Shown: positions 15,584 to 64,000, counted from the first letter of the stretch. The stretch is DNA of 64,000 bases from Fervidobacterium nodosum Rt17-B1 (GCF_000017545.1 NC_009718.1:248001-312000); one strand, 5' to 3'. Made by a program: numbers and translations. The notes: a model not told the origin generated them from the letters alone.

Positions 15584-18500
15584 TTATCTTCCTATAATTT
15601 TATACATTGGCAGATTAAGTGTTGAAATCGGTTTTACTGCAGGTAAGTTAGTAATATCGTAAAGTAATATTCCGTTATCTGTTCCTACAACCATTTGTCT
15701 GTTATCAGCTTCCGTATGAAATGCGTAAGTTAAACCTTTGAAATCTATGTCAGTTATTTTCTCACCGCTTGAAGATAATATCTTTATTCCAAATCCACCA
15801 CCAGATACAAAGATTTTTTCTCCGTACCAGGATATATTCCGTGCAGGTGCACCTTCGAAAACAGGTGTTTTTGTCAAATTATCATCATCTTTTTCTGTAA
15901 GCGTGACACCGTTTCTATCAAGTATCCATATACCGTTGAAATCACCATCAGCGACAAAAATTCTATCGAAGTATTTATCTACAGCTATTGCCAAGTCGTT
16001 TCCAGGATTGTACTTCTTAAGTGTGTATCCGTTTGGACTTTCTGTAATAACGTAATATGGTGTTGAAATTTTTCTCTCATCGTTGAAGCCAAGAATATTT
16101 CCAGCATTATCTGTAAGTAAAGTATACCTAACTATCCCAGCTTGGCCACATGATACAATAACATGAGATGGTTTTTGAGCTTCAGATATGTAATCAACGA
16201 CAACTTGCAACGATTTTGGTTCAACGTTTTCCTCAATTGATGAGAAATATGGTATATTTTGACTTATTGTTGCTGGAAGCGTTACCGATACTCCTAGTGA
16301 ATTACCATCATAGCTAAAAATTTCTACAACGTTTCCTGAACTTTTCTTCCCCAAAACGTAAGCTCTTCCTTGCGCGTCTATTGCGACATCATATATAGAG
16401 TTAAATCCAGATAGATCCAAAGGAGTTGCCGTAGATAAATTCAAAGTTGTATAATCAAAATCATACAATTTTGCGATTTTTGATTCAGTATTTGCAACGA
16501 CTATTTTTGCTACTCTTGTTGAGTTACTTTTTGGTACAGCTTTCATTTTCACATCGATTTTGTTCAAAAATTGACCGGTATCCCATCTTCTAATTGTCGG
16601 TTCAAGTGGATCTCTTACATCTAAAACATATAAACCATTACAATGGAATCCATCACCGACTGCAAAAACAAAGTTGTTTAGATATTTTATATCAAAAGCT
16701 TTGTATAACTTATTTGGTTCATTTTTCGAATCGTTTAAGTAAGTTGTAAGCCCTTTACCACTATCGAGAACAATCGCATGATTGTTACTATCGTCTTCTT
16801 TTATAAATAACATATCTGTAAATTTAGCTCCAAGCTCAAATGCAACCTCAGATGATATGGAATCGTTTATCCATTTTCTAATTCTGTCGATTGTGAATGC
16901 GTATAAATTGTTGTTTGACAACTTTACGCCTTTAACTTCTGTATCAAATAGATTGTTGGCTAAATTTGTTACGGAAGATGATGGAAGCTCATTGGGGGCA
17001 TTTTCTGCATCTGAAAGGTTTACATATTTTACGCTCTTATAATCTGAAAATGCAATAACAAATTTCGAATTAAATTGACCTATATCTAAATCGTTTACCT
17101 GCCCTTGATAAAGAATAATTACATCATTGATGGTAATATTTGGTATATTGACTAAGTTAAGCTTTAATAGTCCGTAATTACTGACAGCCAAATATGCATT
17201 TGTGCCTGAAAGTTTTATGGAGCTTATCTTACCTTGGGTAATATCTACTTTTGAGTTTGTTTTTGTTCCAAATTTTGAGTACGTAGATACTGGAACTTGT
17301 AATCTCTTTATTATTTTTCCGAACTCTTTGCTTGCAACTATTGGATTCGCGGGATCTTTTAAATCCACAACAGTTAATCCACGAGTACCTTCACCTATAA
17401 TTGCATAATGTTTGTAAATTTTTATTGATGTTAATGTTGTTCCAAGGTCTATTTTTTTAATTAGCTTTGGTTGACTTTTGTCTGATGCGTCTATAACATA
17501 AAGGCTTGTGCCACCAACAGTATAAATATAGTCTTCTACGACATCTAAATCTACAAGTTCTGAATCATCTGAATTTACGAAAAATCCCTCAAGCTTTATA
17601 GTTGGCAGGTTTATAGTGCTTGATATATTAATTATTGATTTTCCATCAAAGCTCTTTGAGATTACATACGAATATCTTGGCTTTGAGTTCGTTTTGAAAG
17701 TAACTTCTGCCGTTGAAGATGCTTTTGAAAGATCGTAAGCGGTAACTGATGCTTTATATTGTGCGTTGTATTCTAAACCACTTACTATAAATTCCGTAGC
17801 TGTTGTTTCAGAAGTTAGTATAGTGCTTGAACCTTTTAAAATTGAAACCTTATATTTAAGTCTGTCGTTAGGATCGTTATCTATACCATTCCAACGTAAA
17901 ATAAAGTACGTTGGTACTATTTCATTCTGAAATGGTTGTACTATTTGAACTGTCGGTGATTGATTTATTATGTTTACCATTTTTTGGACAGTTCTTTCTG
18001 CGTCGTAAACATCTTTGGCGTAAATATCTATAATGTAATTGTCTCTTGGAAAACTTTTAATTGGTATTTTTACTTGGAGGTCTTTTTCATTTTTCCAAAT
18101 TATGCTTCCGTCCAACTTCAAGACTTTTACCGATGATATTATTCCATCATTTTCAGGATCAGATATATTAACAGTAACTTCTTCGGTTTCTTCAGTTATA
18201 ACTTCAGGTGTTATAATTACTACAGGTTGGAGATTATTAACTTTTATCTTTTTTTCTATGCTGACACTTTTTCTACCATCACTAGCTGTTATTGATAGTG
18301 TGTGCTCTATATTGAAAAATGCAGAGTTCAAATTCAGCTTTGATGCGTAATCATTTAACTTTAATTTTGTCAAATTTTGCCCCGAGGCAAATGTAATGTC
18401 ATCCAATTTCCATGTAACGGTTGGGTTGTTTCCAGTTACGGTGACTGAAAATTCTTTAGTTCTGTCTACTGAGATGGTCTCGGTTACTTGGGTTATATCG

Positions 18501-18619
18501 TTGTTATCATACTTTAAGTTTCTTATGCTTAAAACTGAAATGTTGGAGCATGAGAATAAATAAAACAAAAGTATAGGTATTCCAATAAACAAAAAAATGC
18601 TTGAATAAAACCTTTTCAC
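15584..18619 (-). CDS. large lipoprotein: Ig/fibronectin-like domains plus LVIVD-type beta-propeller
   Basis: The 1011-residue product is assigned from the GTG at 18619, behind GGGGGGAT; a 27-codon upstream extension has no site. A lipoprotein signal ends in LLFYLFSC. Next come two Ig- or cadherin-like domains (to about residue 215, with SDPENDGIISSVKVL) and one fibronectin-like domain containing IDNDPNDRLKYKV. The rest repeats the LVIVD/propeller theme, with blocks such as YIYTVGGTSLYVIDASD, AIIGEGTRGLTVVDLKD and FAVGDGFHCNGLYVLDVRD. It is probably exposed outside the inner membrane and binds other proteins or glycans. It is monocistronic, with an extended -10 promoter. Function unknown. Confidence 0.75.
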   Translation of the reverse strand: MKRFYSSIFLFIGIPILLFYLFSCSNISVLSIRNLKYDNNDITQVTETISVDRTKEFSVTVTGNNPTVTWKLDDITFASGQNLTKLKLNDYASKLNLNSAFFNIEHTLSITASDGRKSVSIEKKIKVNNLQPVVIITPEVITEETEEVTVNISDPENDGIISSVKVLKLDGSIIWKNEKDLQVKIPIKSFPRDNYIIDIYAKDVYDAERTVQKMVNIINQSPTVQIVQPFQNEIVPTYFILRWNGIDNDPNDRLKYKVSILKGSSTILTSETTATEFIVSGLEYNAQYKASVTAYDLSKASSTAEVTFKTNSKPRYSYVISKSFDGKSIINISSTINLPTIKLEGFFVNSDDSELVDLDVVEDYIYTVGGTSLYVIDASDKSQPKLIKKIDLGTTLTSIKIYKHYAIIGEGTRGLTVVDLKDPANPIVASKEFGKIIKRLQVPVSTYSKFGTKTNSKVDITQGKISSIKLSGTNAYLAVSNYGLLKLNLVNIPNITINDVIILYQGQVNDLDIGQFNSKFVIAFSDYKSVKYVNLSDAENAPNELPSSSVTNLANNLFDTEVKGVKLSNNNLYAFTIDRIRKWINDSISSEVAFELGAKFTDMLFIKEDDSNNHAIVLDSGKGLTTYLNDSKNEPNKLYKAFDIKYLNNFVFAVGDGFHCNGLYVLDVRDPLEPTIRRWDTGQFLNKIDVKMKAVPKSNSTRVAKIVVANTESKIAKLYDFDYTTLNLSTATPLDLSGFNSIYDVAIDAQGRAYVLGKKSSGNVVEIFSYDGNSLGVSVTLPATISQNIPYFSSIEENVEPKSLQVVVDYISEAQKPSHVIVSCGQAGIVRYTLLTDNAGNILGFNDERKISTPYYVITESPNGYTLKKYNPGNDLAIAVDKYFDRIFVADGDFNGIWILDRNGVTLTEKDDDNLTKTPVFEGAPARNISWYGEKIFVSGGGFGIKILSSSGEKITDIDFKGLTYAFHTEADNRQMVVGTDNGILLYDITNLPAVKPISTLNLPMYKIIGR

Positions 18620-18659
18620 AAAAATCCCCCCAAATAATTTTGTATAAAATCTAAATAAA

Positions 18660-18668
18660 ATTATAGCA
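18660..18668 (-). promoter_or_regulatory. extended -10 promoter of the beta-propeller lipoprotein gene
   Basis: TGCTATAAT is read on the minus strand, 41 bases before the GTG start. It overlaps an AGCAC/GTGCT inverted repeat and has no -35 consensus. Confidence 0.5.
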
Positions 18669-18706
18669 CATTTAGTGCTTAATTTTGTACAAGTTTGCAA
18701 TTTCTA

Positions 18707-28309: not shown

Positions 28310-29113
28310 GTGGATAAGAGAGTAAAGGAAGCTTGTGAATTTATAGAAAGTAAAATCAAAACTAAACCGAAAATAGCTTTAATTCTTGGTTCAGGGTTAG
28401 GTTTTCTAACAGAGAAAGTAGAATTTAAGCAAGAATTGAATTACAAAGATATTCCGAACTTTCCTTACTCAACTGCTCCAGGTCATGAAGGGAAGCTTGT
28501 TTTTGGTGAATTGTTTGGAAAGGAAGTAGTCGTTCTTAGTGGTAGATTTCATATATACGAAGGTTGGAATCCTTCGGATATAAAAATAGTGATACACACT
28601 CTAAAAATGCTAGGTATCGAAAAAATATTGATAACAAATGCTGCTGGTGCGGTTAACACAACATACAAGCCTGGTGATATTGTTCTCGTAAAAGATGTAA
28701 TTAATTTTACCTTCAGAAATCCGTTGAGAGGACCAAATGATAATGATTTAGGTCCAAGGTTCCCTGATATGTTAGGAGTTTTTGATAAAGATTGGATGGG
28801 TAAACTAAAACAAATTTATCCAGAAATGAAAGAAGGGGTTTACATAAGTTTGACAGGTCCTACATATGAAACACCAGCTGAGATAAGGGCAGTTAGGAAA
28901 ATGGGTGCAGATTTGGTCGGTATGTCAACTGTACCAGAGTTAATAGTTTGTGCGCATGTGGGTATTAAGGCTCTCGTTTTGTCTTGCGCAACAAACATGG
29001 CAGCTGGAATATTGGACCAGCCACTTTCACATGAAGAAGTTGTGGAGGTTGCAAATTTGGTAAAAGAGAAATTTACGGAGATTGTTAAAAAAGCTTTGGA
29101 GGTATTAGAATGA
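28310..29113 (+). CDS. punA: purine nucleoside phosphorylase
   Basis: The 267-residue enzyme cleaves purine nucleosides with phosphate in the salvage pathway. It is the trimeric PunA type, seen from ILGSGLGFL (phosphate loop), GRFHIYEGW, ITNAAGAVN and TGPTYETPAEIRA, with the base-binding region MGADLVGMSTVPE. The GTG start follows GGAGGG. It overlaps nrnA by ATGA, and the pair may act together in RNA/nucleotide turnover. Confidence 0.93.
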   Translation: MDKRVKEACEFIESKIKTKPKIALILGSGLGFLTEKVEFKQELNYKDIPNFPYSTAPGHEGKLVFGELFGKEVVVLSGRFHIYEGWNPSDIKIVIHTLKMLGIEKILITNAAGAVNTTYKPGDIVLVKDVINFTFRNPLRGPNDNDLGPRFPDMLGVFDKDWMGKLKQIYPEMKEGVYISLTGPTYETPAEIRAVRKMGADLVGMSTVPELIVCAHVGIKALVLSCATNMAAGILDQPLSHEEVVEVANLVKEKFTEIVKKALEVLE

Positions 29114-30108
29114 ATAGAGATTTTCTAAATATAGTCGCGGAATTGAATAAAGCTAAAAAAATACTTGTTGTGGGTCACATAATGCCCGATGGTGATGATG
29201 TAAGTTCTGTTTTAAGCGCTACTTTGGGATTGAGAAAAATTGGAAAAGAAGTGCTTGCTGGAATTGATTGGAGAATACCATGGTATTTTCAAGAATTTGA
29301 AGAAGTAAACGAAATACTATCTTACGAAAAAATAATGGAAGCAAATTTTAATCCAGATATTGTTTTAATTTTAGATGCTTCAAGTCCAGATAGAGTTGGG
29401 AGGTTTCAGGAATTTTTTGATAATCGGACAGTTCTTGTCGTTGACCACCACGGAACAAACACACTCTTTGGAACGTACAATTGGGTTGACACAAAATATG
29501 GTTCAACAGCGCAGATGGTTTTAAGAATCAACACGGAACTTGGTGTGGAGTATGATGAAAGATTAGCAACGCTTAACCTAATGGGTATAGCTACTGACAC
29601 AGGATTTTTTAGATATTCAAATGCCGATGAAATAGTTTTCTCCGATGCTACAAAACTTGTCTCTTTGGGCGGAAAAATGTACCTTGTTTCAAGATTATTT
29701 GAAAATAAAAGAGTTGAACAATTTAAATTACTTTCAACAATGATTGAAAATATGAAGATGGAGTTGGATGGTCAAATAGTTTATTCTTACCTTTCAAAAG
29801 AAGATTATGAAAGAAATAACTGTAATGAAGATGATAGCGGAGGTTTCGTTGGAGAATTACGCTCAATAAGGGGAATTGAATTGGCGATATTTCTATCAGA
29901 ATATGAGAAAGGTGAAGTTCACGTGAGTTTTCGTTCACGTGATTGGTTTGATTGCAGTCGTCTTGCTGTTTTTCTTGGTGGTGGTGGGCATCCAAGGGCC
30001 GCAGGTTGTACTTTAAAAGGAAATCTTAATGTTATTGTTGAAGAAGTAATTAGAGAAGCAAAAAATATGTTCGTTAGTCAAAGAGAGAGTAGACTACTTA
30101 TCAAGTGA
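29110..30108 (+). CDS. nrnA: DHH/DHHA1 phosphoesterase, NrnA-type oligoribonuclease / pAp phosphatase
   Basis: The 332-residue protein contains the DHH phosphoesterase metal motifs GHIMPDGDD, the DAS of ILDASSPDRVG and DHHGTN, and the C-terminal DHHA1 glycine-rich motif GGGGHPRAAG. It degrades short oligoribonucleotides and pAp, and related proteins also degrade linearised c-di-GMP (pGpG), which is of interest next to two GGDEF genes. It is coupled to punA by ATGA. The following gene has an open frame that begins inside the 3' end of this one. Confidence 0.9.
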   Translation: MNRDFLNIVAELNKAKKILVVGHIMPDGDDVSSVLSATLGLRKIGKEVLAGIDWRIPWYFQEFEEVNEILSYEKIMEANFNPDIVLILDASSPDRVGRFQEFFDNRTVLVVDHHGTNTLFGTYNWVDTKYGSTAQMVLRINTELGVEYDERLATLNLMGIATDTGFFRYSNADEIVFSDATKLVSLGGKMYLVSRLFENKRVEQFKLLSTMIENMKMELDGQIVYSYLSKEDYERNNCNEDDSGGFVGELRSIRGIELAIFLSEYEKGEVHVSFRSRDWFDCSRLAVFLGGGGHPRAAGCTLKGNLNVIVEEVIREAKNMFVSQRESRLLIK

Positions 30109-30304
30109 ATTTACCCACCTTGGGGGGATTAAAACGACTAGCACTGTAAATTCCAAATACAAGTTTATAAGGGAAGTTTACAACGGTTATGAATATCTTT
30201 CGAACGAAGATGGAATTTACCTTTTAAGGTTTATTCCAAGAAATTTTATTGATAACTTCGATAAATTCATTATAACTCTTAATTCATTCTCAATTTTTAA
30301 CCGT

Positions 30305-33300
30305 ATGTTTTTGCCAATAACAGCAGAAAAACATGATGAATATTACATTGTCAAATTCGCTTACTCGGATGAGAAACCCGTGCTAAATTACGAGGACAAA
30401 ATAGATGATCAATCCTTGAGAGATTTGATTTATTCTTTGATGTTTTATATTTACGGTGTTAAAAGTGGTGTATTTCCTTCTTTAGGTTATTATTCGTTAG
30501 ATGATATCTTTGTATATGCAGGCCAAATATTCTTTTTACCACCTACTGTCTACTCATGGGATTTTATATATAAGGTACTTGATAAATCAGGAAGGAGTTT
30601 ATTTGTAGCTCCAGAATTTTTAGAAAAAGGTACCACAAACTTTCAATCCACACTTTACGTCTGTGGTAAGATTATAGAATATTTCGATCATAAAAAGAAA
30701 TATAATTTTATTACTCAAGAATTGGTGAAAGAAATACCTGAAGACAGAAAGTTTTACGATGGATGGTTAAAAGAATTTGGATTATTTGACAATGAAGAGA
30801 TAGAAGAGTTCTCTAAAGAAATGTTTGAAAAAATAAAGAATTCAAAGGAAAAATTCAATATAATAAGATTGAAATCAGCACGTTGGATAGAATTAAATGC
30901 TGTATTGCTCAGTATAAATAAAAAAGTATCTAGTTTAGAAAATTCGGCAATGATATTTGTTAAGAACGACTTTACGAATGTTCCAAGGCAGTTAATGGCT
31001 AAATACAAAGGATACGTTCCCGCTTCTGAATATAACCTGTTTCTAAGAGCTCTTTATGATAATGTAAAGTTTAATTCTATAATTCCAGTTATAATTTCAA
31101 CGTTTAATTCATTTGACAACATTTTTGTATTCATAGAGGATTTAGATAATTCTGATTATTTTGTTCGTAGTTTTATTAGCTACTTAAGCGAAAGTAATTT
31201 GTCTAGTAAAGTATACGTCTTTTCTAAAGAATCAAAGTTTGCCAATTTCACGTTTGAAATCCCTAAATCAATTAAATTTAAAGTCGAAGATAAGCCACAT
31301 GCTTTTGACGAACTTTGTCCAAAGAATTTGAAGTATCTTGCATTACTTGGTGAGAACTTTTCAAGAAATGATGTGAGAAATCTTGAAAAATCTTTGAAAA
31401 ATAGGCTTGAAAAAGAAATCGAATATGGTTTGAAAAAAGGTATTATAGAATTAGATGATGTTAATTATAGATTTTCTAACGAATATTGGAAGCAACTGTA
31501 TGAGTCGATAGATTTAGGAGAAAAGGTTGCTATACATTCTAAACTTGCAAAGGTGTATTTGAATTTGGATAATCCATACAGGGATATTTTAAAAAGCGGA
31601 TTCCATTACACGTCCGCTGGTAAAGATATATCAGCTGCAGTAATTTATTTGAGATTCATAAAGAAAAATTTGGATACATACGTATTTTCAACTGAGCGAA
31701 TGAAAGATATCTTTTCTAGGATTTATTATCTTCTAAAGAAATGTAATCACCTTGACTCTTATGCTTTTCATTCACTCAAATTGAAGTTTCAATATCAATC
31801 TTTTGAAGATTTACCTTTTGAAGTTCCCTTGCCAGAAAGCAAAAAATTTCTGCATCTCAAATTATTGGAAAAATACATCAACAATAAAGAAAGGGAAGTT
31901 ATAGAAGATTTTACAAAGTTTTTTGAAAAACCACAAGTAAAATCTGAATATGATTTTGAAGATTTTAAATTGCTTTCAGCTTACTTAATTTACAATTACT
32001 CGTATTACAGAGTCTACGATAAGTTGGAGAATACCGAAGAAGTAAAAAATATTGTTAATAATATTAAGGAAAAAAACGAAAAGTGGGCGACTTTGAAAGC
32101 AGAATATTTATTGCTGATAGCTAATTCAATGTTATATAAAAACGGAAAAGAAGCAAAGATTTATTTAGAACAAATGACAAAAATCGCGACTCACTATAAC
32201 AAAAAATATCTTTTGATACAAGCATACAATGCTTTTGGTATATTAAATGATGCAACTGCTCTTTCTATTGATAATTTTAGAAGGGCAATTCAAATTTCAG
32301 ATGAGATAGGTTATGTAAAGAGAAAATTTATTCCGATGGTAAACCTTTTAAGAGCATTACTTTATTTTGGATACATTGAAGAAATGCGAGATAAAATAGA
32401 TGAGTTTGGGAAATATAAGTTAATTATAAATAATCCATCAGATTTAGCTTTTTATTATAGAATAATATCATTTTTACCTATGTACGAACAAAAATACAAG
32501 GAAGCAAAAGAGATTCTCAACAAATCTTTAGAGATAGAATCTAATTTTGGATTGCAAAAATCCTCGCTTAGAGCAATCATTCTAAATGAGCTTATCTGCG
32601 GTAATTACGATAATGCAAGAAGAATTATAGTTGAGAATAAAGATGATCCAGCTATAAAAACAAGAGCCTTCGAGTATTTAGTGAAGATGGTTTTAGCTGA
32701 GAATGATGATGAATTAAAAGAAATATGGATTGAATATAAGAACTCATCTTACGAACTTTTAAGGGAGGAGATACTGTATATCTTCGCTGAAAAAATTGCA
32801 AAAGTTGATTTAGACGGATTTTTAAAAGAAATTAGTAAGTGGGAAAATGAGTATACAACCACCGGTGTTAAACTGTCGCTTTTTTACGTATTACTTGCGA
32901 AACATAAGTATCTAAAAACAATCGGGAATCATGTTCGTTTAGCGCAATTAAATTCTGAAATTTGTACACTTGCAAATGATATAAAAATTGATCATCCTAT
33001 CTTAAATGAATGTATAAGTGAAAACACGGATAAGTTCCTTGAATTATTGCATATCTTTAAGAGAATAGACATGAAAATTACTATAGAGCAATTTGTTAAT
33101 CTTTTTGCAGCGGAAATTCATAGGCTATTTAGCGCAGAAAAATTATTTTTGAATGTCAATGATGAACTAATTGGAATTAGTTATAATATATCGAATATTC
33201 CGTATATCACAGAAATTCCAAAAGAAGAGGTATTTCAACTATCGCCATTGGAAGTTTTAATCAAAGAAAACATAGACGATAAATCAAGTTATTTGATTTA

Positions 33301-33892
33301 CATATATAGTGAAAATTACAAATCAAATGATTCTTACGAACTTGAGAAGAGGCTGACGTTATTACAAGAGTTATTTAGCGGGCAATTAAGAGGCGTAATT
33401 TTAAGAGAAAGGGCAAACATAGACAGTCTGACTGGTTTGTATAACAGGTGGAAATTTAACCAATTTATCAACGAACTTTTCGATACAAAATCAAAAGAAT
33501 TTTCAATTTTTATTGCCGATATCGATAATTTCAAAAAAATCAACGATACTTATGGTCATATGGTTGGGGATAGCGTATTAAAAAATATAGCTAAAATTTT
33601 GAAAGAACATGTACGCGATGAAGGATTAGTAGCACGTTATGGTGGAGAAGAGTTTGTTGGGATAGTATATAAATCAAAATATGAAGCAGCAAAATTATGT
33701 GATACTATAAGAGAAAATATAGAGAAAGAATCTTTAAAAATATTTGGTTTCAGAGTAACAATCAGTATAGGTATGGCAGACGTTAATGAAAAAGAAAATG
33801 TTACTGAATTGCTTGGTTTAGCTGATCAGAGATTATACAAAGCTAAAGAAGCGGGAAAAAACAGAGTTGTTTGGGGTGAATATAGATGCTGA
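30305..33892 (+). CDS. giant GGDEF protein 1: pseudokinase-like, degenerate NTPase, helical repeats, diguanylate cyclase
   Basis: From the first canonical start, an ATG, the product has 1195 residues. Its frame is open from 30050, and the translation of 30128-30304 looks coding, so the true start may be a non-AUG codon upstream. Residues 1-115 are kinase-like, with VAPEFLEKG and STLYVCGKII resembling the APE and following helix of Ser/Thr kinases. A middle region aligns with the neighbour's NTPase but has lost the P-loop, keeping only a Walker-B-like VFIEDLDNSD. A long helical-repeat (TPR-like) region follows. The C-terminal GGDEF domain (about 1040-1195) has active-site RYGGEEF and DIDNFKKIND, but the I-site is RDEG rather than RxxD. 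The next gene overlaps by 7 bases. Confidence 0.8.
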   Translation: MFLPITAEKHDEYYIVKFAYSDEKPVLNYEDKIDDQSLRDLIYSLMFYIYGVKSGVFPSLGYYSLDDIFVYAGQIFFLPPTVYSWDFIYKVLDKSGRSLFVAPEFLEKGTTNFQSTLYVCGKIIEYFDHKKKYNFITQELVKEIPEDRKFYDGWLKEFGLFDNEEIEEFSKEMFEKIKNSKEKFNIIRLKSARWIELNAVLLSINKKVSSLENSAMIFVKNDFTNVPRQLMAKYKGYVPASEYNLFLRALYDNVKFNSIIPVIISTFNSFDNIFVFIEDLDNSDYFVRSFISYLSESNLSSKVYVFSKESKFANFTFEIPKSIKFKVEDKPHAFDELCPKNLKYLALLGENFSRNDVRNLEKSLKNRLEKEIEYGLKKGIIELDDVNYRFSNEYWKQLYESIDLGEKVAIHSKLAKVYLNLDNPYRDILKSGFHYTSAGKDISAAVIYLRFIKKNLDTYVFSTERMKDIFSRIYYLLKKCNHLDSYAFHSLKLKFQYQSFEDLPFEVPLPESKKFLHLKLLEKYINNKEREVIEDFTKFFEKPQVKSEYDFEDFKLLSAYLIYNYSYYRVYDKLENTEEVKNIVNNIKEKNEKWATLKAEYLLLIANSMLYKNGKEAKIYLEQMTKIATHYNKKYLLIQAYNAFGILNDATALSIDNFRRAIQISDEIGYVKRKFIPMVNLLRALLYFGYIEEMRDKIDEFGKYKLIINNPSDLAFYYRIISFLPMYEQKYKEAKEILNKSLEIESNFGLQKSSLRAIILNELICGNYDNARRIIVENKDDPAIKTRAFEYLVKMVLAENDDELKEIWIEYKNSSYELLREEILYIFAEKIAKVDLDGFLKEISKWENEYTTTGVKLSLFYVLLAKHKYLKTIGNHVRLAQLNSEICTLANDIKIDHPILNECISENTDKFLELLHIFKRIDMKITIEQFVNLFAAEIHRLFSAEKLFLNVNDELIGISYNISNIPYITEIPKEEVFQLSPLEVLIKENIDDKSSYLIYIYSENYKSNDSYELEKRLTLLQELFSGQLRGVILRERANIDSLTGLYNRWKFNQFINELFDTKSKEFSIFIADIDNFKKINDTYGHMVGDSVLKNIAKILKEHVRDEGLVARYGGEEFVGIVYKSKYEAAKLCDTIRENIEKESLKIFGFRVTISIGMADVNEKENVTELLGLADQRLYKAKEAGKNRVVWGEYRC

Positions 33893-36800
33893 ATTTTGAA
33901 GTTTTGGAATTTTTAGTTGAAACATATTGGAGTAAAGATTATATAGTTGAACAAGATGGAAAAAGAAAGCTTGCCAAGTTTGTAAAAGAAGGACTTATTA
34001 CTAGACCCGAAGAAGCAGTTTTAAAATCAGAGTTAGCTAAAAACATTCAGGGAATAATCGTCCCTGAAAGTTTTGTTTTTGAGAAATCAACTATATTAAT
34101 TTACGATATTGATAATATCAAATACTATAGCAAATTCGACGAAGAGATGAAAAAGCTTGTATCTTTGTTTTTATTAAACGTTGTTAGAAACATTCTCCAT
34201 ATTCCAAAATTGTACGTCCCTGTTCTCGGTTTTATGGATATAGTCAAAGTGGGAACTGATATATTGCTGTTTTTACCTTTTGTACAAGATTATAAAAAAT
34301 TAATTGACTTAAATGTTCAGGAGAAAGAAATTCAGTATTTTATCGCTCCTGAGGTTATTCAAAATTCTTTGGTAATAGATAGCTCAACAATTTACGTTTT
34401 TGGAAAGGTAATAGAAACTGTAACAGAAGATGAAACAATTAAAGAACTATCTTTTGAGATGACCAAAGAAGAGCCATCACTAAGAAAGATAAAAGAGGAT
34501 ATACCATACTTTACTATTTCAAGAAAGAAAAGAACACTTGCGTTAAAGAGGATAGTTCGAGATGAGGAAAGTGAAATATTAAAGTTTATTGAAGATGAAA
34601 GTGCTGATGGGAATTTTTTGGGAGTTGTAGGTAGCCAAAGAATAGGTAAAACTACTATTATTGAAAATATTGAGAATACATTAAGAGAGAAAGGTATTCC
34701 TTTCTTACATGCGATGAGCGGCTCAGATATAATTGCTCAAACATTACAACTCGTGTCAGATATCATACCAAGTGAACTACTTAACGAATTGTCGAAATGT
34801 ATTGAAAAAACGTGTAAAATAGATACTATTTCTATAGCAGTTGTACAAGCCCTTGAGAATTTAAATAAGGTTGTTATATTTGTCGATGATTACCATGAAG
34901 TTCACGAAACTCTGAAATCTTTTCTCAAGAAAATTTCAGATTTGAGTAAGAGTAAAAAGATAAAGATAATAGCATTCAGTGTCGAAGATTTTGAGGAATT
35001 TGAAAAAAGAATATACATTAGTCCTTTCACAGTCGAGCAGGTAAAGAATTTGCTTGAAGTTTCTTTTAACACAGTGCATGAAATTAACATTCTTTCCAAT
35101 TGGTTAACAATAGTATCGAATGGTTTGCCTGGCGTAGTAGTAGAGTATTTGAGATACCTTTATGAAAATGATGTTCTTTACTTTAAAGGCAATGAATTGA
35201 TGTACGATTTAGATAAATTAGCAGAGATAGAGATGAAAGATGTTTTTGAGAAAAAAATAGAAAGTCTTAGCAATGAAGAAAGATATATTGCTATTCTTGG
35301 GCAAAAGTTCACAAAAGATGAGATAAAAATGCTTAGTGATAAAATAGGTAAAGAAATAGATATTTCTAAGTTTGTGTCTGAAGGGATTATTTACAAAGAG
35401 TATGATAAATACCGTTTTACGTTAAGGCAATATTGGGAATTACTTTATAACAGTATACCTTTACAAAAAAGAATTGAATTCCATAAATTTTTCGCTGAAA
35501 AATCTAATGATATATTCAAAAAAGCTTGGCATCTTGAAATGGTTGGGAATAAGGTAAGTGCTGCTACCGTTTATCTGAAGTATATCAGAGAACTTCTTAA
35601 CTATTACGCTTCTCCTTCTCTTGTTAAGTCTGTTATTCGTAAGGTAAAGGAAATTATTGGAAATAGAATTTCTTACGCGCTCATAAAATTCGAAGTAGAA
35701 CTTCTTACAAGAACAGAAGAGATGGAAGAGCTTAAAAGCTTAAATATTCCGGAAACAAGGCTTTATTCATATCATTTAGCAAAGAAATTTTTCTTTTCGT
35801 ATGATGAAAAAATGACGTATGAAATTTTGAAGAGATTTCCAAACGCATACGGCAAAATTGGTGAGTTAAGAAAGAAATTGCTCTTTCTACGTGCAGAGTA
35901 CGAAATCACAAAGAAAAGAAGCGATTATTTTCAAAAAGCCACAGCTATAGTTTCTGAATTAAAAGAAAATAATCCTATTCACGCTGATATTCTTGTTGAT
36001 GTTTATTTTTTCACTGCGCGCGTTTTATCTGGTAATCCTCAAAAGGCTTTGCAATATCTTAAGAAAGCCGAAACAATAGCTTTGGATTATAATTTTGCTC
36101 ACAAGTTGCCAAGTATATACAATAATATGGCTATTGAAAGTTCGAACATGCACATTTCGATGGCTTATCTGAAAAGGTCCGTTGACATTGCAAACAATAT
36201 AGGACTTCCTGCAAAAGGCTATCTGGCACAATTAAACATTTTGTATCATCAATTGTATGCTGGAAAAATTAACGATTTTATAAATGGGATTTCAAGTATA
36301 AAACCAAGAATAGAGCTACTTGGATTGACACATGAAATTGTTTATGCCAATTCATTAGAAGCTTATTATCATGCTTACAATTTTGAAATTGAGGAAGCTC
36401 TCGAGCACATTACAGAAATTGAAAAATTAACGAATGAAACTTACGATGCAGAGAAAATTTTTTTAAATGTTTTAGTTAGAAATTTTGAATCAGTGAAGAA
36501 ATTAATTTCAGAAATAGAGATTTCTAAATTAGATGAAGAAAACCTAAATGTTTTAGAGATTATAAAAAAATTTGAAAGTAATGAGTTTGGAATTATGTGG
36601 GAAAAGTACATAAATAGAGGAGGAAAGGTTTTTAGGGAAGAAATGTGCGCTGTTTTCGGCGATAAACTTGTTAAATTAACCCCTGAACTTTTCAGAAAAG
36701 AACTTGAGTATTTGGAAAATAGATTTACATTAGATGGAAGTTTACTCTCGCTTGCGTTGGTTTATGAAGGATATGGTCATTATTATAAGGGAATTGGGAA

Positions 36801-37848
36801 AATTTATAAGGCGAATGTTTACTATTCGAAAGCTATAACAATTTACAAGGATATAGGATTGATTAAAGCTGCAGATTCTTTGTCTAAAATGTATGATATA
36901 TCAACTTCTACAGAATCATTAAAGGAAATTGAAGATACAAGATCTCTTTTACTCGATGTCTTAACGAGCTTAAAAGTTGTTGATCCAAAAACCGATCCGC
37001 AAGTTTTAATGGATTACTTTGTTTCAAAAGTTTTATCTGTTTTTCCAGTTAAAAATGTTTATTTCAAAATATACGATAGCGTTTTAGATAAAACATTTGA
37101 AAGTGGTATTGGGGATTTCAAAAAATATGATATGGATTATATAAGTGTTTCACCGTTAGAAATTTATCTTTTGGATAACTTTGATCCTAAATCACATTAT
37201 GAAATTTATGCGTCTAACCCAGATGTTTCTTTCAGTGAAGAGTTAAAGCAAAAACTTATTTCTAAAATAGAAATCATAGAATACGGTTTTGTTGCTGTTT
37301 TCAAAAGTTTTTTAACCCGTATGAGAAGTTACGTTGATCCACTTACAAAGCTGTTTACAAGGTATTATTTTGCTGAACTTTTATCTCAATATTTTGAAAA
37401 CGCAGTTAATCAAAAAGATAGTCTTGCTATAGTCATGTGTGACATAGATAATTTTAAGAAGATTAATGATACTTATGGACACCTTACAGGTGACAAGGTG
37501 CTTAAAACTATAGCAAAAATTTTGAGAGATAATGTTAGAACAACAGATATTGTTGGAAGATTCGGAGGAGAAGAATTCATAATGGCATTTCCATCAACAG
37601 ATTCTGAAGAGGTTGTTTTAATATTAGAAAGATTAAGAAGACTAATAAAGGATGTTCAAGAATTCCCATTTAAGTTAACTCTTAGTTTTGGAGTTGTAAG
37701 TTATCCACAAGACACTGAAAATATTATAATAAAAGCCCCAGAAGATCTTATAAGACTTGCTGATACTGCCTTATACCATGCTAAGAATACAGGAAAAGAT
37801 AAGATTGTTGTATATTCGGAGGGAATGACAGGTGGATTACATGCTTAA
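33886..37848 (+). CDS. giant GGDEF protein 2: pseudokinase-like, STAND-like NTPase, helical repeats, diguanylate cyclase
   Basis: This 1320-residue paralogue of the preceding protein keeps features the other has lost. Its N-terminal region (1-180) looks like a degenerate protein kinase (IAPEVIQNS, STIYVFGKVI). Residues from about 247 form an NTPase with Walker A VVGSQRIGKTT and Walker B VVIFVDDYHE, then a winged-helix/helical part, TPR-like repeats (HADILVDVYFFTARVLSGNP region) and a GGDEF domain at about 1151-1310. The active site RFGGEEF is at 1227-1231 and the inhibitory I-site RTTD lies just before it. It makes c-di-GMP, presumably in response to a signal sensed through the NTPase and repeats. 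No membrane segment or phosphodiesterase domain is seen. Confidence 0.82.
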   Translation: MLNFEVLEFLVETYWSKDYIVEQDGKRKLAKFVKEGLITRPEEAVLKSELAKNIQGIIVPESFVFEKSTILIYDIDNIKYYSKFDEEMKKLVSLFLLNVVRNILHIPKLYVPVLGFMDIVKVGTDILLFLPFVQDYKKLIDLNVQEKEIQYFIAPEVIQNSLVIDSSTIYVFGKVIETVTEDETIKELSFEMTKEEPSLRKIKEDIPYFTISRKKRTLALKRIVRDEESEILKFIEDESADGNFLGVVGSQRIGKTTIIENIENTLREKGIPFLHAMSGSDIIAQTLQLVSDIIPSELLNELSKCIEKTCKIDTISIAVVQALENLNKVVIFVDDYHEVHETLKSFLKKISDLSKSKKIKIIAFSVEDFEEFEKRIYISPFTVEQVKNLLEVSFNTVHEINILSNWLTIVSNGLPGVVVEYLRYLYENDVLYFKGNELMYDLDKLAEIEMKDVFEKKIESLSNEERYIAILGQKFTKDEIKMLSDKIGKEIDISKFVSEGIIYKEYDKYRFTLRQYWELLYNSIPLQKRIEFHKFFAEKSNDIFKKAWHLEMVGNKVSAATVYLKYIRELLNYYASPSLVKSVIRKVKEIIGNRISYALIKFEVELLTRTEEMEELKSLNIPETRLYSYHLAKKFFFSYDEKMTYEILKRFPNAYGKIGELRKKLLFLRAEYEITKKRSDYFQKATAIVSELKENNPIHADILVDVYFFTARVLSGNPQKALQYLKKAETIALDYNFAHKLPSIYNNMAIESSNMHISMAYLKRSVDIANNIGLPAKGYLAQLNILYHQLYAGKINDFINGISSIKPRIELLGLTHEIVYANSLEAYYHAYNFEIEEALEHITEIEKLTNETYDAEKIFLNVLVRNFESVKKLISEIEISKLDEENLNVLEIIKKFESNEFGIMWEKYINRGGKVFREEMCAVFGDKLVKLTPELFRKELEYLENRFTLDGSLLSLALVYEGYGHYYKGIGKIYKANVYYSKAITIYKDIGLIKAADSLSKMYDISTSTESLKEIEDTRSLLLDVLTSLKVVDPKTDPQVLMDYFVSKVLSVFPVKNVYFKIYDSVLDKTFESGIGDFKKYDMDYISVSPLEIYLLDNFDPKSHYEIYASNPDVSFSEELKQKLISKIEIIEYGFVAVFKSFLTRMRSYVDPLTKLFTRYYFAELLSQYFENAVNQKDSLAIVMCDIDNFKKINDTYGHLTGDKVLKTIAKILRDNVRTTDIVGRFGGEEFIMAFPSTDSEEVVLILERLRRLIKDVQEFPFKLTLSFGVVSYPQDTENIIIKAPEDLIRLADTALYHAKNTGKDKIVVYSEGMTGGLHA

Positions 37849-38761
37849 TATTTCAACTAATATCACAAGAAAAATTCTTGAGACTCTTTGGAATTATGGT
37901 TGTGATTTATTTTTGAATGAAGAACTCGCGGATCATGTTAATTTTAAGTTAGGAGGTAAAGTCCCACTATTTGCAATTCCAAATTCAACTAATGGTTTTA
38001 TAGAAACAATAAATCTACTAAATAAGGAGGGTATAGAATTTCGGATTATAGGTCGTGGAACAAACATCCTTCCTGTTGATGAACCTTTGCCATATGTTGT
38101 TGTTTCCACGGAGCGAATGGATGATGTTTTCGTTGACAACGAAAAAATACAAGTAGGAGCTGGCCTGTCATTCAAAAAATTGTGCCTTGTTGCGCTTGAA
38201 AACGAGCTTTCTGGTTTTGAAAACGCTTTTGGTTTACCCGGTAGTGTTGGTGGAGCTGTTTATATGAACGCTGGCTGTTATGGTTGGGAAACTGCTGAAA
38301 ACATTGTTGAAGTTGTTGCTTTTGATGGTAAAGATATTATAAAACTGGGTAAAAATGAAATAGGGTTTGGATACAGAACTAGTATATTTAAATCTGAAAA
38401 AAATCTAATAATTCTCCAAGCTACATTTAAGTTGAAAAAGGGGAATAAGAATGAAATATATAATTTAATGCTTGAAACGATGAAAAAACGTTATGAAAAG
38501 CAACCTTTAGAATTTCCAAGTGCTGGTAGTGTTTTTAAAAGACCGAGACCGGATTTTTATGTTGGGACAGCTATTGAATCTCTTGGTCTAAAAGGTTTTT
38601 CAATTGGCGGAGCACAGATTTCCGAAAAACATGCTGGATTTATAATTAACAAAGGTGGTGCGAAGGCAGAAGATGTTTTGAAATTAATAGAATACGTAAA
38701 AGACAAAGTTAGAGAAAAATACAATGTTGAACTTGAGACAGAAATTGAAATATGGAAATAA
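37841..38761 (+). CDS. murB: UDP-N-acetylmuramate dehydrogenase
   Basis: MurB reduces UDP-GlcNAc-enolpyruvate to UDP-MurNAc with NADPH and FAD. Landmarks are LGGKVPLFAIP and IIGRGTNIL in the FAD domain, GLPGSVGGAVYMNAGCYG, and the C-terminal SAGSVFKRP with the catalytic serine and AGFIINKGGAKAEDV. The ATG at 37841 is chosen, behind AGGTGG; a GTG at 37832 behind GGAGGG is possible. It overlaps the preceding GGDEF gene by 8 bases. Confidence 0.92.
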   Translation: MLNISTNITRKILETLWNYGCDLFLNEELADHVNFKLGGKVPLFAIPNSTNGFIETINLLNKEGIEFRIIGRGTNILPVDEPLPYVVVSTERMDDVFVDNEKIQVGAGLSFKKLCLVALENELSGFENAFGLPGSVGGAVYMNAGCYGWETAENIVEVVAFDGKDIIKLGKNEIGFGYRTSIFKSEKNLIILQATFKLKKGNKNEIYNLMLETMKKRYEKQPLEFPSAGSVFKRPRPDFYVGTAIESLGLKGFSIGGAQISEKHAGFIINKGGAKAEDVLKLIEYVKDKVREKYNVELETEIEIWK

Positions 38762-40651: not shown

Positions 40652-42049
40652 ATGAAGGTAATCAAAAAGGTTTTTTTGTTCTTTTTAATTTCTGGAACAT
40701 TTTTATACCCTTTGCTACTTCTTGCTTTGACTGTTATTGGTGAAAACGGAAGTATAGTTTACTATAACGATAAATTAATAGGTACCATAAAAAACGCAAG
40801 TATTACATTTGACGCCACATTTCCAGGCTATTTGAAAGTCATCAAGCCTGGTTATATATCTTTTGAAAAATATTTAACTGAAGATGGGACAATAACGGCA
40901 ACTCTAACTTTGCCGTCTTATCTTCAACTTAATGTTAATCCAAAAGATGCAGTAATATCAATTGATGGATTTTTACAAAAAACTTTAGACAACAAAATTG
41001 TTATTTCTCCAGGAAAACATGTTATAGATGTTAGCGCGCCGGGTTATACCACAAAAACAATTGAGATAAACATTCTTCCGTACGAGGAAAAATTTATAGA
41101 TATTTCTCTAAAAAAAACCACAACATTGCGTATTGAATCTGATAAAAAGATAGAAAATGCATTTTTTGATAATTTGCCAATATCTCTCCCATTAACATTA
41201 GAAGTTATACCTGGGAAACACAAATTAATTCTTCCAAATAACTTTGTAAGAAATAATGTAGAAATTGAAATCCCGAGTCAAGATGAATATACAATTAAAA
41301 TTGATACTCATGAGAAATTCCTACTTTCTGTATCTGGAAAACCCAACGATGCTTACGTTCAAATAAAGGATCAAGTTTATAAAGCACCATTTAATATTAG
41401 TTTTCCAGAAGGTGTCTATAACATAAAAATTTTTTCTCAGGGATATGAAGAATATAAAACAACAATTGATTTAGATAGAAATAAAACGCTTTATTTTGCA
41501 TTAAAACCATTGGAGGAGGTCACTGTTAAATTTAGAAAGAAAGGTTACACTGTCGAATTTGATGGATTTGCTCGTGAAAGTGTTCCAAAAAGTCCGATAT
41601 TTACTACAATAAAAGACGAAAAAGGGAATATTGTGTGGCTAGGGTTTAGTGATGGGACCTTTGAAGATATTCCAAAAACTATTCCTATTCTTATTGGGCG
41701 TAACCATTCTATTTTTGTTGCTAATACAATTTATAATGGCCCAGCTATAGTACATGTGCAAAGCGGTCAAAGGGTCTTATCCTTTTTTAATAATGAAAAA
41801 ATAGGTGAATATGAGATAAAGAATTTTACCATCTTTGATAATAAAACAAATTGCCTTGTCAATATTTATTCCAAAGAAAGAATAGATGTTTATTGGGATG
41901 GAAAGTACATAGGAAAAACTCCAATTTATCTTTTTAATGCAGAGGAAGGGATTCATAACGTTGTTTTTAAAAATGGGGGAATTACATTATCAGAAGTCAA
42001 TTATGAAGTTAGGTCTTCTCGCTTGAATGAGATAAAATTTGGTGAATAA
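40652..42049 (+). CDS. exported protein with repeated PEGA domains
   Basis: The 465-residue product has a signal-like hydrophobic N-terminus (residues 7-30) followed by several PEGA-type beta-sandwich modules, seen as repeated LQLNVNPKDAVISIDG, PGKHVIDVSAPGY, PGKHKLILPNN, FPEGVYNIKIFSQGYEEY and DVYWDGKYIGKTPIY units. PEGA domains occur on bacterial surface proteins and are thought to bind or space other proteins. It lies before the toga spacer gene. Function is unknown, but a periplasmic or envelope role is likely. Confidence 0.75.
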   Translation: MKVIKKVFLFFLISGTFLYPLLLLALTVIGENGSIVYYNDKLIGTIKNASITFDATFPGYLKVIKPGYISFEKYLTEDGTITATLTLPSYLQLNVNPKDAVISIDGFLQKTLDNKIVISPGKHVIDVSAPGYTTKTIEINILPYEEKFIDISLKKTTTLRIESDKKIENAFFDNLPISLPLTLEVIPGKHKLILPNNFVRNNVEIEIPSQDEYTIKIDTHEKFLLSVSGKPNDAYVQIKDQVYKAPFNISFPEGVYNIKIFSQGYEEYKTTIDLDRNKTLYFALKPLEEVTVKFRKKGYTVEFDGFARESVPKSPIFTTIKDEKGNIVWLGFSDGTFEDIPKTIPILIGRNHSIFVANTIYNGPAIVHVQSGQRVLSFFNNEKIGEYEIKNFTIFDNKTNCLVNIYSKERIDVYWDGKYIGKTPIYLFNAEEGIHNVVFKNGGITLSEVNYEVRSSRLNEIKFGE

Positions 42050-42083: not shown

Positions 42084-43388
42084 GTGAAAAAGCGATCGTG
42101 TTTGTTGTTAATAAAAGTTATTTTTGTGTTTTTCTTTTCAATTACTTCGGTTTTTGCTGCTACAATAAAAGACCTTTCGCCATCTGCTTCCGATTACAAA
42201 GCAGTAAATGCATTAGTTGACATGAAAATATTAGACGTTGATTCAAATGGAAACTTTAAGCCCTCGCTTCTTATTACTAAGTTGGATCTTGCAAGGTATC
42301 TTTACAACCTTATTGATTATTACAACCTTAATAACTTATCAAGATTACAAACAAGTTTAGGTGATGTCGTAACATCAAGTGATTTAAAAAAATTGGATAG
42401 TAAAATCTCAGGTTTGGACAGCAGGATTTCCGGTGTTGAGAAACAAATTCAATCGATTCAAAGTAGTCAAAATAATCTTCAAGATACGGTTAAGAACCTT
42501 CAGGTAAATATAAATGAAATGGCAAAAAAGATAGATTCTTTAGAAAAAAAGATTTCCGCTCCAGTTTCAACTCCTTCAATACCATCATCTTACCAAGAAA
42601 CGTTAACAAGCTTGCAGAAAAGTGTGAATGATTTAAAAACTCAGCTATCAAATAATGAAAAACAACTCTCAACTATAAAGCAGCAAATATCAGTAAATGA
42701 GTCTAGTATTGAGAATTTGAATAAATTAATCCAAAAAAATACCGAAAAAATAGATAGTCTAACTAGTAATATATCCAGTTTAACTAATAATGTATCAAAA
42801 ATAAATAATAAACTTGAAATTGTAGACAATATTTTAGTTAATTACTCGAATGAGATTCAAACTATTAAAAATAGTATAGAAAACATTAATGTTAATACGA
42901 AAAATACCAATAACAGAATAGACTCTCTTGAAAAACTAATGCTTTCTATTAATTCATCGTTAGATCAAAGATTGAAAAAAGTCGAAGAAATAATAAATAA
43001 AGGTGATGAATTTCTAAAAAAATTGGATGCGGTGGATGCTATTACTGTGGAGAATGCTTTTAATAATATCCAACTTTTAACAAACAGATTTGACCAGATA
43101 GAACAGAGATTTAATAAAATTGAAGACTATGTTAATACGTTAAATGTAGAGCAAATGAAAATTATGAACGAAATTTCAAAGTCCAAAGTAGAGCAAGAAA
43201 AAATAAATGAAATAGGTTCTAAATTAGAGACTTTAAATGATTATCAGCAAAAAACAAATAACGAGATTTCGAAAATGCAATCAAACTACGACCAACTTAA
43301 AAATGAACTGAATATAACAAGATGGATTGCTATAGGAAGTCTTCTTCTTTCAACTGTACTTTTCTTCATTATAATAACTAATCAATAA
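42084..43388 (+). CDS. Omp-alpha-like envelope spacer protein: SLH domain, coiled coil, membrane anchor
   Basis: In Thermotoga the rod-like Omp-alpha spans the periplasm between cell wall and outer toga. This 434-residue protein has the same plan: a signal peptide (1-25), one SLH-like domain (about 27-88, ending in LDLARYLYNLIDYYNL), a very long coiled coil (about 95-405, rich in Q, N, I and K heptads such as NLNKLIQKNTEKIDSL) and a C-terminal membrane segment at 410-432. SLH binds cell wall and the C-terminus anchors the sheath. Length is close to the known protein. Start follows GGGCGGTGG. Confidence 0.85.
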   Translation: MKKRSCLLLIKVIFVFFFSITSVFAATIKDLSPSASDYKAVNALVDMKILDVDSNGNFKPSLLITKLDLARYLYNLIDYYNLNNLSRLQTSLGDVVTSSDLKKLDSKISGLDSRISGVEKQIQSIQSSQNNLQDTVKNLQVNINEMAKKIDSLEKKISAPVSTPSIPSSYQETLTSLQKSVNDLKTQLSNNEKQLSTIKQQISVNESSIENLNKLIQKNTEKIDSLTSNISSLTNNVSKINNKLEIVDNILVNYSNEIQTIKNSIENINVNTKNTNNRIDSLEKLMLSINSSLDQRLKKVEEIINKGDEFLKKLDAVDAITVENAFNNIQLLTNRFDQIEQRFNKIEDYVNTLNVEQMKIMNEISKSKVEQEKINEIGSKLETLNDYQQKTNNEISKMQSNYDQLKNELNITRWIAIGSLLLSTVLFFIIITNQ

Positions 43389-59993: not shown

Positions 59994-60844
59994 TTTTTGT
60001 ACCCCCTTTCTCTGAACAGTAAAAATGCGATTCCAATTATTATCATAACCGCTGCAAAGTAAATCCAAGAGAGTGCCGACGAGTACGAATATGGTTTATC
60101 AATATCAAACATCCTTTGAGTAATACTTGTATTAACTGGGTTATTCGCAAATGATGCCAAATCAACGATTGTGTATATTGCATTGATGAGTAAAAATGGC
60201 CTTATCAGTGGTAAAGTGATTTTCCAGAATATAATCCAGCTATTTGCACCATCTATTTTTGCGGCTTCATATACACTACTACTTATTTTTTGAAGCCCAG
60301 CCAAGAAGAATAGAATTTGCACACCTGAAAACCAAAGTATCAGCACTAAGTTATTAAACATATATATGAATGGATAACTAATAGTATTAGGCATAACCAT
60401 AAAAAATTTGTATATAAAGTATCTTCTTGGATCAACTATCTGTGCTGCGTTGTTTGCAACAAGTTCAGAAATAACAGGACCGCTAATAATAACCACTGGC
60501 AGGAAGTAAAGCAATCTAAAGAATGCACGAGCCCTAAGTTTATTGTTCAAAAGTATAGCTATTATGAGAGAGAATACTAAAATCAGAGGTGTTGAAAGTA
60601 CTATGCTCAAGATAGTATTCCAGAAATTAATTGGAAAAGCCGGATCTGTTCTAAATGCGTATATGTAATATTTCAAACCAACGAATGTTGCTTTTATTCC
60701 TTCAACGGTGAAATTAACATTGAAAAAGCTTAAATAAAGTGAATAGAAGAATGGATAAGCTGTGAATATAAGAAAACCAGCGATCCATGGTGAAATGTAT
60801 ATATATCCACTTATAGCTTTCCTCGTCTTTCTTGTCATTCTCAT
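59990..60844 (-). CDS. sugar ABC transporter permease, MalF/UgpA type
   Basis: The 284-residue MalF-type permease has six segments and the EAA loop SSVYEAAKIDGANSWIIFWK. The start ATG at 60844 overlaps the stop of the DUF5696 gene (ATGA) behind GGAGTTG. With the MalG-type partner it forms the channel for an oligosaccharide, most likely beta-glucan fragments. Confidence 0.88.
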   Translation of the reverse strand: MRMTRKTRKAISGYIYISPWIAGFLIFTAYPFFYSLYLSFFNVNFTVEGIKATFVGLKYYIYAFRTDPAFPINFWNTILSIVLSTPLILVFSLIIAILLNNKLRARAFFRLLYFLPVVIISGPVISELVANNAAQIVDPRRYFIYKFFMVMPNTISYPFIYMFNNLVLILWFSGVQILFFLAGLQKISSSVYEAAKIDGANSWIIFWKITLPLIRPFLLINAIYTIVDLASFANNPVNTSITQRMFDIDKPYSYSSALSWIYFAAVMIIIGIAFLLFRERGYKK

Positions 60845-63120: not shown

Positions 63121-64000
63121 GGTACAACACCTCCTGGACAATGCTAAATGCGGTTTCTACTAGTTGATCCCAAAGCATGTAAACGATAGAATAAACGAGT
63201 ATTATCACGAAAACCCAACCTAATGTAAATAAAATACTTTTCACCGTGTTCTTAATATCATAGTCGTGTGTTTCTTTTACTCCGGTAAATAACATCACAG
63301 CACTCCATGAGATTAAAAACATCGATGCAAAATCGATTAAAAACTTTTCGTTATATGTAAGCACATATGTACTCAATATTACTAATGGTTGGAATAATAT
63401 ATACGGTGCAAAAGAATATGCAGTAAAAACGTATATATCTCTCAACGTTCCTTTGCCGTCGTTTATAGAGCTGACAAGCCAGTTGGATATAATCCACAAA
63501 AATAAAATAGACGATGATGTTAGTAAAACAAATCCAACGTTTCTATCGCTTGTATTGAGATTAAATATAAAACTTCGGCCAAAATAATCTACTAAGATAA
63601 CTAAGAGGAACATTAAGTAAATAATTGAAGCGGAAAGAACAGAGCCATGCTTTTTCTTTTGCAAATAATAGAAAGTATCCAAAGGATGCCTAAGAATATT
63701 TTTTATATAAAGTACGTCCGATAGCAACTTATTTTTTACATGGAACTTTATTTTAATCTTCCCATACCTTGATAATAAATCAATAATTGTAAAAATTAAT
63801 ATGATGATTACAAGTAAAGACAAAATAATTCCCATATTCTTCTGCAAAAAATTATTTCTCATTTCCCAAAAAGCATCTGAGTAATCTCTTCTCGCGAAAG
63901 CTTCCTTGAAATGCAGTGCAGCTTTATCGTACCGAGCTGATTGGAAATATGCTTTGCCAAGTCCATAGTGTGCTATTTTGGAATAACCGTCGTAAGTCAT
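63101..64000 (-). CDS. TPR plus YIP1-type membrane protein (5' partial, cut by the window edge)
   Basis: The visible 299 residues have a TPR-like helix pair at the N-terminus (YGLGKAYFQSARYDKAALHF), then a membrane segment and a YIP1-like module with five or so membrane segments. The frame is open to the last base, and the ATG at 64000 is only the window edge, so the full protein extends further upstream (often NHL or propeller repeats in such proteins). It is the first visible gene of the glucan operon, coupled by overlap to the DUF5696 gene. Function unknown. Confidence 0.7.
   Translation of the reverse strand: MTYDGYSKIAHYGLGKAYFQSARYDKAALHFKEAFARRDYSDAFWEMRNNFLQKNMGIILSLLVIIILIFTIIDLLSRYGKIKIKFHVKNKLLSDVLYIKNILRHPLDTFYYLQKKKHGSVLSASIIYLMFLLVILVDYFGRSFIFNLNTSDRNVGFVLLTSSSILFLWIISNWLVSSINDGKGTLRDIYVFTAYSFAPYILFQPLVILSTYVLTYNEKFLIDFASMFLISWSAVMLFTGVKETHDYDIKNTVKSILFTLGWVFVIILVYSIVYMLWDQLVETAFSIVQEVLYRVRNIR

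Follow-up and report, generated by a model that had tools for sequence, protein, structure and literature searches.

Why would an anaerobic thermophile keep, side by side, two very large proteins of the same domain order, each ending in a GGDEF domain? A tandem gene pair in Fervidobacterium nodosum Rt17-B1 raises this question. It lies in a 64,000-nucleotide stretch (NC_009718.1:248001-312000), hereafter the window, whose first letter is position 1. We call the first gene of the pair and its protein A, and the second B:

30134..33892, + strand: gene A, with pseudokinase, dead NTPase, TPR, GAF-like and GGDEF parts, ~1252 residues from a proposed ACG start
33886..37848, + strand: gene B, with pseudokinase, STAND NTPase, TPR, GAF-like and GGDEF parts, 1320 residues

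A and B are overlapping paralogues: their reading frames share 7 bases (33886-33892), and the proteins align over the TPR-GAF-GGDEF part with 27% identity across 896 columns (E 2e-65). The reading that we propose, with a probability of roughly 0.55, is that B is an ATP-gated, product-braked switch making cyclic di-GMP (c-di-GMP), with A as its scarce partner. Slightly short of even odds stands the further claim that this is a lineage-specific pair in which A is an ATP-blind, product-insensitive STAND cyclase partner, with an ACG start codon, maintained by selection in two genera, fixing how much of it is made. Neighbourhoods were compared at 40 fetched loci of relatives (L011-L050), and genome-wide searches were run on the complete 1.95 Mb genome.

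The case for B as a switch begins with its domains, for which AlphaFold2 predictions cover residues 1-222 and 216-1145 of B:

33886..34551, + strand: kinase-fold domain, residues 1-222 (AlphaFold, Foldseek, residue counts)
34216-34224, + strand: VPV at the HRD place (residue counts)
within 34270-34281, + strand: LPF at the DFG place (residue counts)
34345-34353, + strand: APE, kept (residue counts)
34549..35421, + strand: nucleotide-binding, helical and winged-helix domains of a STAND NTPase (motifs, model, Foldseek)
34630-34656, + strand: P-loop
34870-34890, + strand: Walker B
35122-35133, + strand: GLPG
35425..36891, + strand: TPR-like helical superhelix, residues 514-1002 (model; Foldseek matches to TPR proteins)
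36931..37317, + strand: GAF-like alpha/beta domain, residues 1016-1144 (secondary structure of the model only)
37324..37812, + strand: GGDEF domain (Pfam 3e-44)
37537-37548, + strand: I-site RTTD
37564-37578, + strand: GGEEF

The model of the first 222 residues (predicted local distance difference test, pLDDT, 91.6) is bilobal with the strand and helix order of a protein kinase, and its best 50 Foldseek matches are all protein kinases (E ~1e-7 to 4e-6). Structure prediction was needed here because the kinase signal in sequence is weak: neither Pfam nor NCBIfam called a kinase, and a profile search against the PDB returned weak matches only (E 0.25-1), many of them kinases at corresponding places. 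We aligned this region in 40 sequences (31 B-type and 9 A-type), taking the catalytic places from the strands of the model. At the HRD Asp place the residue is V, Y, F, A, I, T or C, and at the DFG Asp place it is P, L, A or I; Asp is found in 0/40 at each. Scaffold residues are kept (APE Glu in 36/40, its pairing Arg in 33/40), and the beta-3 Lys place is K in 22/40 and R in 15/40. The N-terminal domain is thus, on the predicted structure, a pseudokinase, a kinase fold that lacks the catalytic residues. Separately, in a group of proteins of 1208-1211 residues (L041-L047) the kinase N-lobe is kept and most of the C-lobe is gone, including APE and the alpha-F motif.

The model of residues 216-1145 (pLDDT 89.1) comprises nucleotide-binding, helical and winged-helix domains, a superhelix and then a GAF-type alpha/beta domain, the winged-helix region being formed by helices and a beta hairpin after the helical domain that carries GxP. 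Its best Foldseek match is PH0952, a STAND-TPR protein, with MalT, CED-4 and plant NLRs among those that come next (6mfv at E 9e-11; 8bob, 8jol and 7dfv also among the matches). In sequence, the profile of the NTPase region has a match of 200 residues to the plant NLR Roq1. Across 40 B-type rows (the window plus 39 loci), the GK of the P-loop is found in 40/40 and GxPG in 36/40, with GLAG in 4; in the Walker B acidic pair D334 is invariant and D335 near-invariant. Motifs and structural matches together identify the predicted NTPase region of B as STAND-type. A profile search with the GAF-like region gave no sequence match, and the helix-strand order of the model fits GAF. At L048:6248-9945 two overlapping open reading frames (981 and 295 residues) stand in place of an intact B-type gene, owing to a frameshift or an assembly error.

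A shares this order of domains and differs in its motifs, as two sites illustrate:

30875..30901, + strand: SARWIELNA at the P-loop place of A, with no GK[ST] (by alignment; GK in 0/10 A orthologues)
33518..33655, + strand: DIDNFKKIND ... RDEGLVARYGGEEF, the active-site motifs of A, kept, with the RxxD I-site absent

P-loop, GxP and RxxD are each found in 0/10 A rows. GGEEF is found in 10/10, that of A_L018 having been read by eye (a chance GGEEF near its N-terminus misled the automated reading), and in every B row that reaches the motif. RxxD stands ahead of GGEEF in 38/39 readable B rows, the exception carrying an insertion (RNKND), and in one further row the site lies beyond the end of the contig. 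Both window proteins have the metal-binding DxDxFKxxND, and the Pfam GGDEF match is far above cut-off in both (2e-40 for A). In every genome that could be read, then, A appears to lack the ATP switch and the product brake and to keep the active-site motifs of a cyclase. We infer cyclase activity for both, which makes A and B predicted diguanylate cyclases. The best-conserved part of A is its GGDEF domain (55-61% identity between the window and orthologues) and the worst its NTPase region (17-34%), the TPR part having 35-50% identity among A orthologues. The ratio of nonsynonymous to synonymous substitution rates (dN/dS), a simple Nei-Gojobori count over few pairs, is 0.26 and 0.18 for A against 0.135 for B, and A is under purifying selection.

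Much of this had been anticipated by a sequence-only reading of the window. Its degenerate kinase is borne out by the structure prediction, its long TPR-like region by the superhelix and TPR matches of the B model, and its C-terminal GGDEF domains by Pfam. It had also found no membrane segments, and indeed the Kyte-Doolittle maximum over 19-residue windows never exceeds 1.7 in A or B, both of which are predicted to be cytoplasmic. The peptides quoted for a kinase-like N-terminus do belong to a kinase domain in both proteins, more exactly to its APE/alpha-F region. The common domain order holds, with GGDEF in both, but the two NTPases are not equivalent, the STAND assignment being supported for B and the NTPase region of A having no P-loop, and the GAF-like domain had been missed.

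The second peculiarity of A lies at its 5' end:

30122..30127, + strand: GGGGGG, Shine-Dalgarno-like, of gene A; a G-run is found in all A orthologues
30134..30136, + strand: ACG, proposed start of gene A, 6 bases past the G-run; same layout in 7/10 orthologues, from two genera

The frame of A is open back to 30050 and contains no ATG, GTG or TTG ahead of 30305. Read from its first ATG (30305-33892) it gives 1195 residues, the length in the sequence-only reading; the two adjacent open reading frames, their 7-base overlap and the 1320 residues of B all stand, but 1195 is too short, for the frame is conserved upstream to ~30134. Translation from there yields a kinase N-lobe alignable with relatives. 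A G-run (GGGGGG, a longer run, or GGGGCGG), 5-6 further bases and an in-frame ACG are found in the window and at L014, L015, L016, L017, L018 and L019, and the bases between G-run and ACG, like those after ACG, have diverged almost completely among the seven; L011, L012, L013 and L064 have TTG near the corresponding place, not ACG. Genome-wide, GGGGGGN6ACG occurs once, at gene A (mirror control, 0). The B-type genes of relatives, in contrast, offer an ATG, GTG or TTG, in many cases preceded by a G-run of similar kind.

In the close pair L015/L016, 12 of the codon changes within the first 59 codons past ACG are synonymous and 15 are not; read in either of the remaining frames, 1/26 and 5/27 are synonymous. 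The 55 codons that precede the first canonical start of L016 have a dN/dS of 0.19, similar to the 0.26 of the rest of the gene. The stretch behind ACG is under coding selection. It is also more diverged overall in this pair (dS 0.68 in the first 55 codons vs 0.125 in the rest, ~5x). Because the G-run/ACG layout is conserved, coding selection acts behind ACG and no canonical start is available there, we read ACG as the start of A, and A seems to start at ACG in most genomes. Open reading frame finders limited to ATG, GTG and TTG shorten A by 57 residues, and its L014-L019 orthologues by varying lengths. ACG is a very poor start codon in bacteria. No natural bacterial ACG start is reported in the literature searched, a weak negative, and to our knowledge neither this start nor the asymmetry between A and B has been described.

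Homologous tandem pairs, which the sequence-only reading had pointed to as worth finding elsewhere in Thermotogota, were found only in Fervidobacterium and a single sister genus (L011-L019, with a further, partial copy at L064), and no fetched genome of these two genera lacks A; the single-copy form is common. Throughout Thermotogales the B-type gene is single-copy beside nrnA, and genomes of Thermosipho and Pseudothermotoga type have one copy in the same place. Within the named collection, relatives are nearest in Fervidobacterium (50% identity) and farther in Thermosipho and Pseudothermotoga. A contig search for relatives beyond Thermotogota confirmed 7 loci only, all Fervidobacterium, Thermosipho, Pseudothermotoga or Thermotogota, by a method that favours near relatives and does not show absence elsewhere; tblastn in plasmids gave no match. 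In a tree built on the TPR-GAF-GGDEF part, all A sequences group together (100/100) and branch outside the B genes of the family to which they belong (99/98); a single clade of A with tandem B is rejected (approximately unbiased, AU, test, p 0.006). Recent duplication within Fervidobacterium is therefore disfavoured, with the age of A left uncertain by its long branch. The tree suggests either a duplication older than the family, followed by loss of A elsewhere, or fast evolution of A.

How, then, might the pair work? STAND proteins, PH0952 and MalT among them, are autoinhibited in a closed form with ADP; an inducer allows ATP to bind, and protomers assemble head to tail (PMC6468293). On the reading that we prefer, A and B would be cytoplasmic, signal-gated diguanylate cyclases with B as the switch, its closed, ADP-bound NTPase core kept shut by the TPR sensor until a ligand on the TPR/GAF part lets ATP displace ADP; the non-catalytic kinase domain may aid as a docking platform. 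B protomers would then assemble and bring their GGDEF domains together into active dimers. GGDEF enzymes work as dimers, RxxD binds product, and the I-site mutant R158A of a T. maritima cyclase loses product inhibition (PMC4215984); c-di-GMP at RxxD would brake B. A would be the duplicated partner, with neither ATP switching nor product braking, made in small amounts owing to its ACG start and most likely acting by pairing with B via TPR and GGDEF domains. Pairing seems the likeliest use of A, at about an even chance, because A is incapable of the ATP step and of the feedback step but has retained its cyclase, and because there is a precedent: in RcbAB, a TPR cyclase system of two genes, TPR-TPR contact with one protein relieves the repression of the GGDEF domain of the other (PMC12282931). 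The genome offers a c-di-GMP network of 17 GGDEF, 9 HD-GYP-type, 1 EAL and 2 PilZ matches above cut-off, and in F. islandicum multi-omics found c-di-GMP turnover genes (GGDEF, EAL, HD-GYP) up 2-5 fold in keratin utilisation (PMC13157175). The two PilZ matches stand side by side (genome G000:C1, 414655-415583) and may be c-di-GMP receptors for the A/B system.

Some observations weigh against this mechanism. In almost all domains and pairs compared, the evolutionary rate of A exceeds that of B, which fits a subunit with a separate role too; RxxD is present in just 57% of diguanylate cyclases, so its absence is not rare (PMC4215984); and the sequence suggests no ligand. The main rival, which we consider unlikely, makes A an independent, unbraked cyclase, constitutively active at a low level and setting basal c-di-GMP without pairing with B, the tandem being a relic of duplication. 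An active site kept without ATP switch or I-site would suit such an enzyme, as would the scarcity that an ACG start would impose, and the branching of A outside every B gene of the family may mean a long time to diverge. However, A keeps its whole TPR and GAF-like part under selection, beyond the needs of a free-running cyclase. Far less probable still is that A is a decaying copy becoming a pseudogene, its missing start codon and P-loop being signs of decay. The loss of P-loop, GxP region, I-site and canonical start and the faster evolution would accord with decay, but the frame is open over the covered length in 10/10 orthologues, GGEEF is intact in all of them, dN/dS is 0.18-0.26 (and 0.19 from ACG to the first canonical start of L016), and the same losses and the same ACG recur despite nearly fully different flanks, unlike random decay.

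The low dose of A in our preferred mechanism depends on the start codon, and here the alternative is a near-cognate ATT, ATA or ATC by the G-run, or an internal ATG that omits the kinase N-lobe. ATT and ATA starts are documented in bacteria, and in S. aureus conserved AUU/AUA starts with a strong Shine-Dalgarno sequence reduce expression (PMC13009471); the window has an ATT immediately past the G-run, and the ATG at 30305 is the first canonical start. We nonetheless doubt this alternative. At L014 ACG is the only candidate near or behind the G-run, with no ATT, ATA, ATC or CTG, and ATN codons, where present, lie 0-3 bases from the G-run and are not conserved, whereas the distance to ACG is 5-6 bases in each of the seven. 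No Shine-Dalgarno sequence precedes the internal ATG, which is not conserved either (the first canonical start of L016 is a TTG 56 codons in), and coding constraint reaches upstream of it.

Two genes flank the pair:

29110..30108, + strand: nrnA-type DHH/DHHA1 oligoribonuclease/phosphatase gene, directly upstream of A (Pfam DHH 2e-13, DHHA1 3e-14)
37832..38761, + strand: gene read as murB from its own sequence, not from a family library; overlaps the 3' end of B by 17 bases

NCBIfam NrnA matches the upstream gene at 1e-28, yet under the cut-off of that model. The sequence-only reading had placed nrnA beside the pair, and the gene also adjoins the B-type gene in 36/40 loci of relatives (L011-L036, L039-L048), the four without it being L037, L038, L049 and L050; in relatives from the same family, B is likewise followed by a murB-like gene. 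Since only 13 bases separate the end of nrnA from the G-run of A, and A overlaps B and B the downstream gene, the four genes are likely on one transcript. Scans of the region found no Rfam element, and those for promoters and terminators were near chance level. A frameshift fusion of nrnA and A was ruled out, the open frames of L015 and L016 being separated by a gap. Elsewhere in the window, a 1038-residue protein with LVIVD repeats (15584-18700, - strand), unusual as a large repeat protein, lies by a FecCD permease gene and FeoB in an iron-uptake neighbourhood; a 766-residue DUF5696 protein (60841-63141, - strand; E 2.5e-171) is encoded near a family 3 glycoside hydrolase gene (56889-59042); and a PEGA-domain protein gene (40652-42049) adjoins one for an SLH-domain protein (42084-43388) that has a long coiled coil and, at its C-terminus, a likely membrane segment, probably as envelope structure genes.

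If our reading is right, immune-type STAND switch machinery has been joined to a c-di-GMP output in an anaerobic thermophile lineage, with an asymmetry built into the switch. The clean split, with switch and brake in B and neither in A, allows direct tests of how a cyclase complex integrates ATP state with product feedback, and thermostable A and B proteins suit structure work. If the start is also right, A is a natural ACG-initiated bacterial gene whose start codon, outside the NCBI table-11 set, is kept by selection, and gene finders that ignore ACG misplace its N-terminus.

Among known systems, PknK and cyanobacterial kinase-AAA regulators likewise place a kinase before a large ATPase/helical region, with an active kinase and a different output. 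A kinase plus MalT-like protein is listed in M. tuberculosis (PMC1262709). PH0952 and MalT (PMC6468293) resemble B in having P-loop, Walker B, GxP, winged helix and TPR superhelix in the same order; B differs from them by its GGDEF cyclase output and the pseudokinase ahead of the NTPase, and A lacks the nucleotide-binding motifs. RcbA/RcbB of Vibrio vulnificus are like A and B a two-gene TPR unit with one GGDEF output, but RcbA has no GGDEF domain whereas A and B both carry one, which sets the pair apart from RcbAB, and the RcbAB abstract mentions no kinase or NTPase domain (PMC12282931). In its start, A is comparable to infC, ccpN and cvfC1, in which a strong Shine-Dalgarno sequence and a weak start codon are kept across species to limit expression (PMC13009471); these use AUU or AUA, and the ACG of A is neither among those nor among the table-11 starts. 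The sequence-only reading had judged a paired degenerate-kinase version with GGDEF output beside nrnA worth describing. A protein of Clostridium thermocellum with a kinase, 6 TPR and GGDEF (gi|23020879, 1826 residues) was reported in 2005 (PMC1262709), and the A/B architecture is a variant of that kind. Likened by domain description, it too is a very large chain with the kinase domain first, then TPR repeats and a C-terminal GGDEF domain; it is listed as a Ser/Thr kinase, whereas the kinase of A and B is catalytically dead, and A and B differ from it further in being smaller, in their recognised STAND NTPase and GAF-like domains, in their linkage to nrnA and in their duplication in one lineage.

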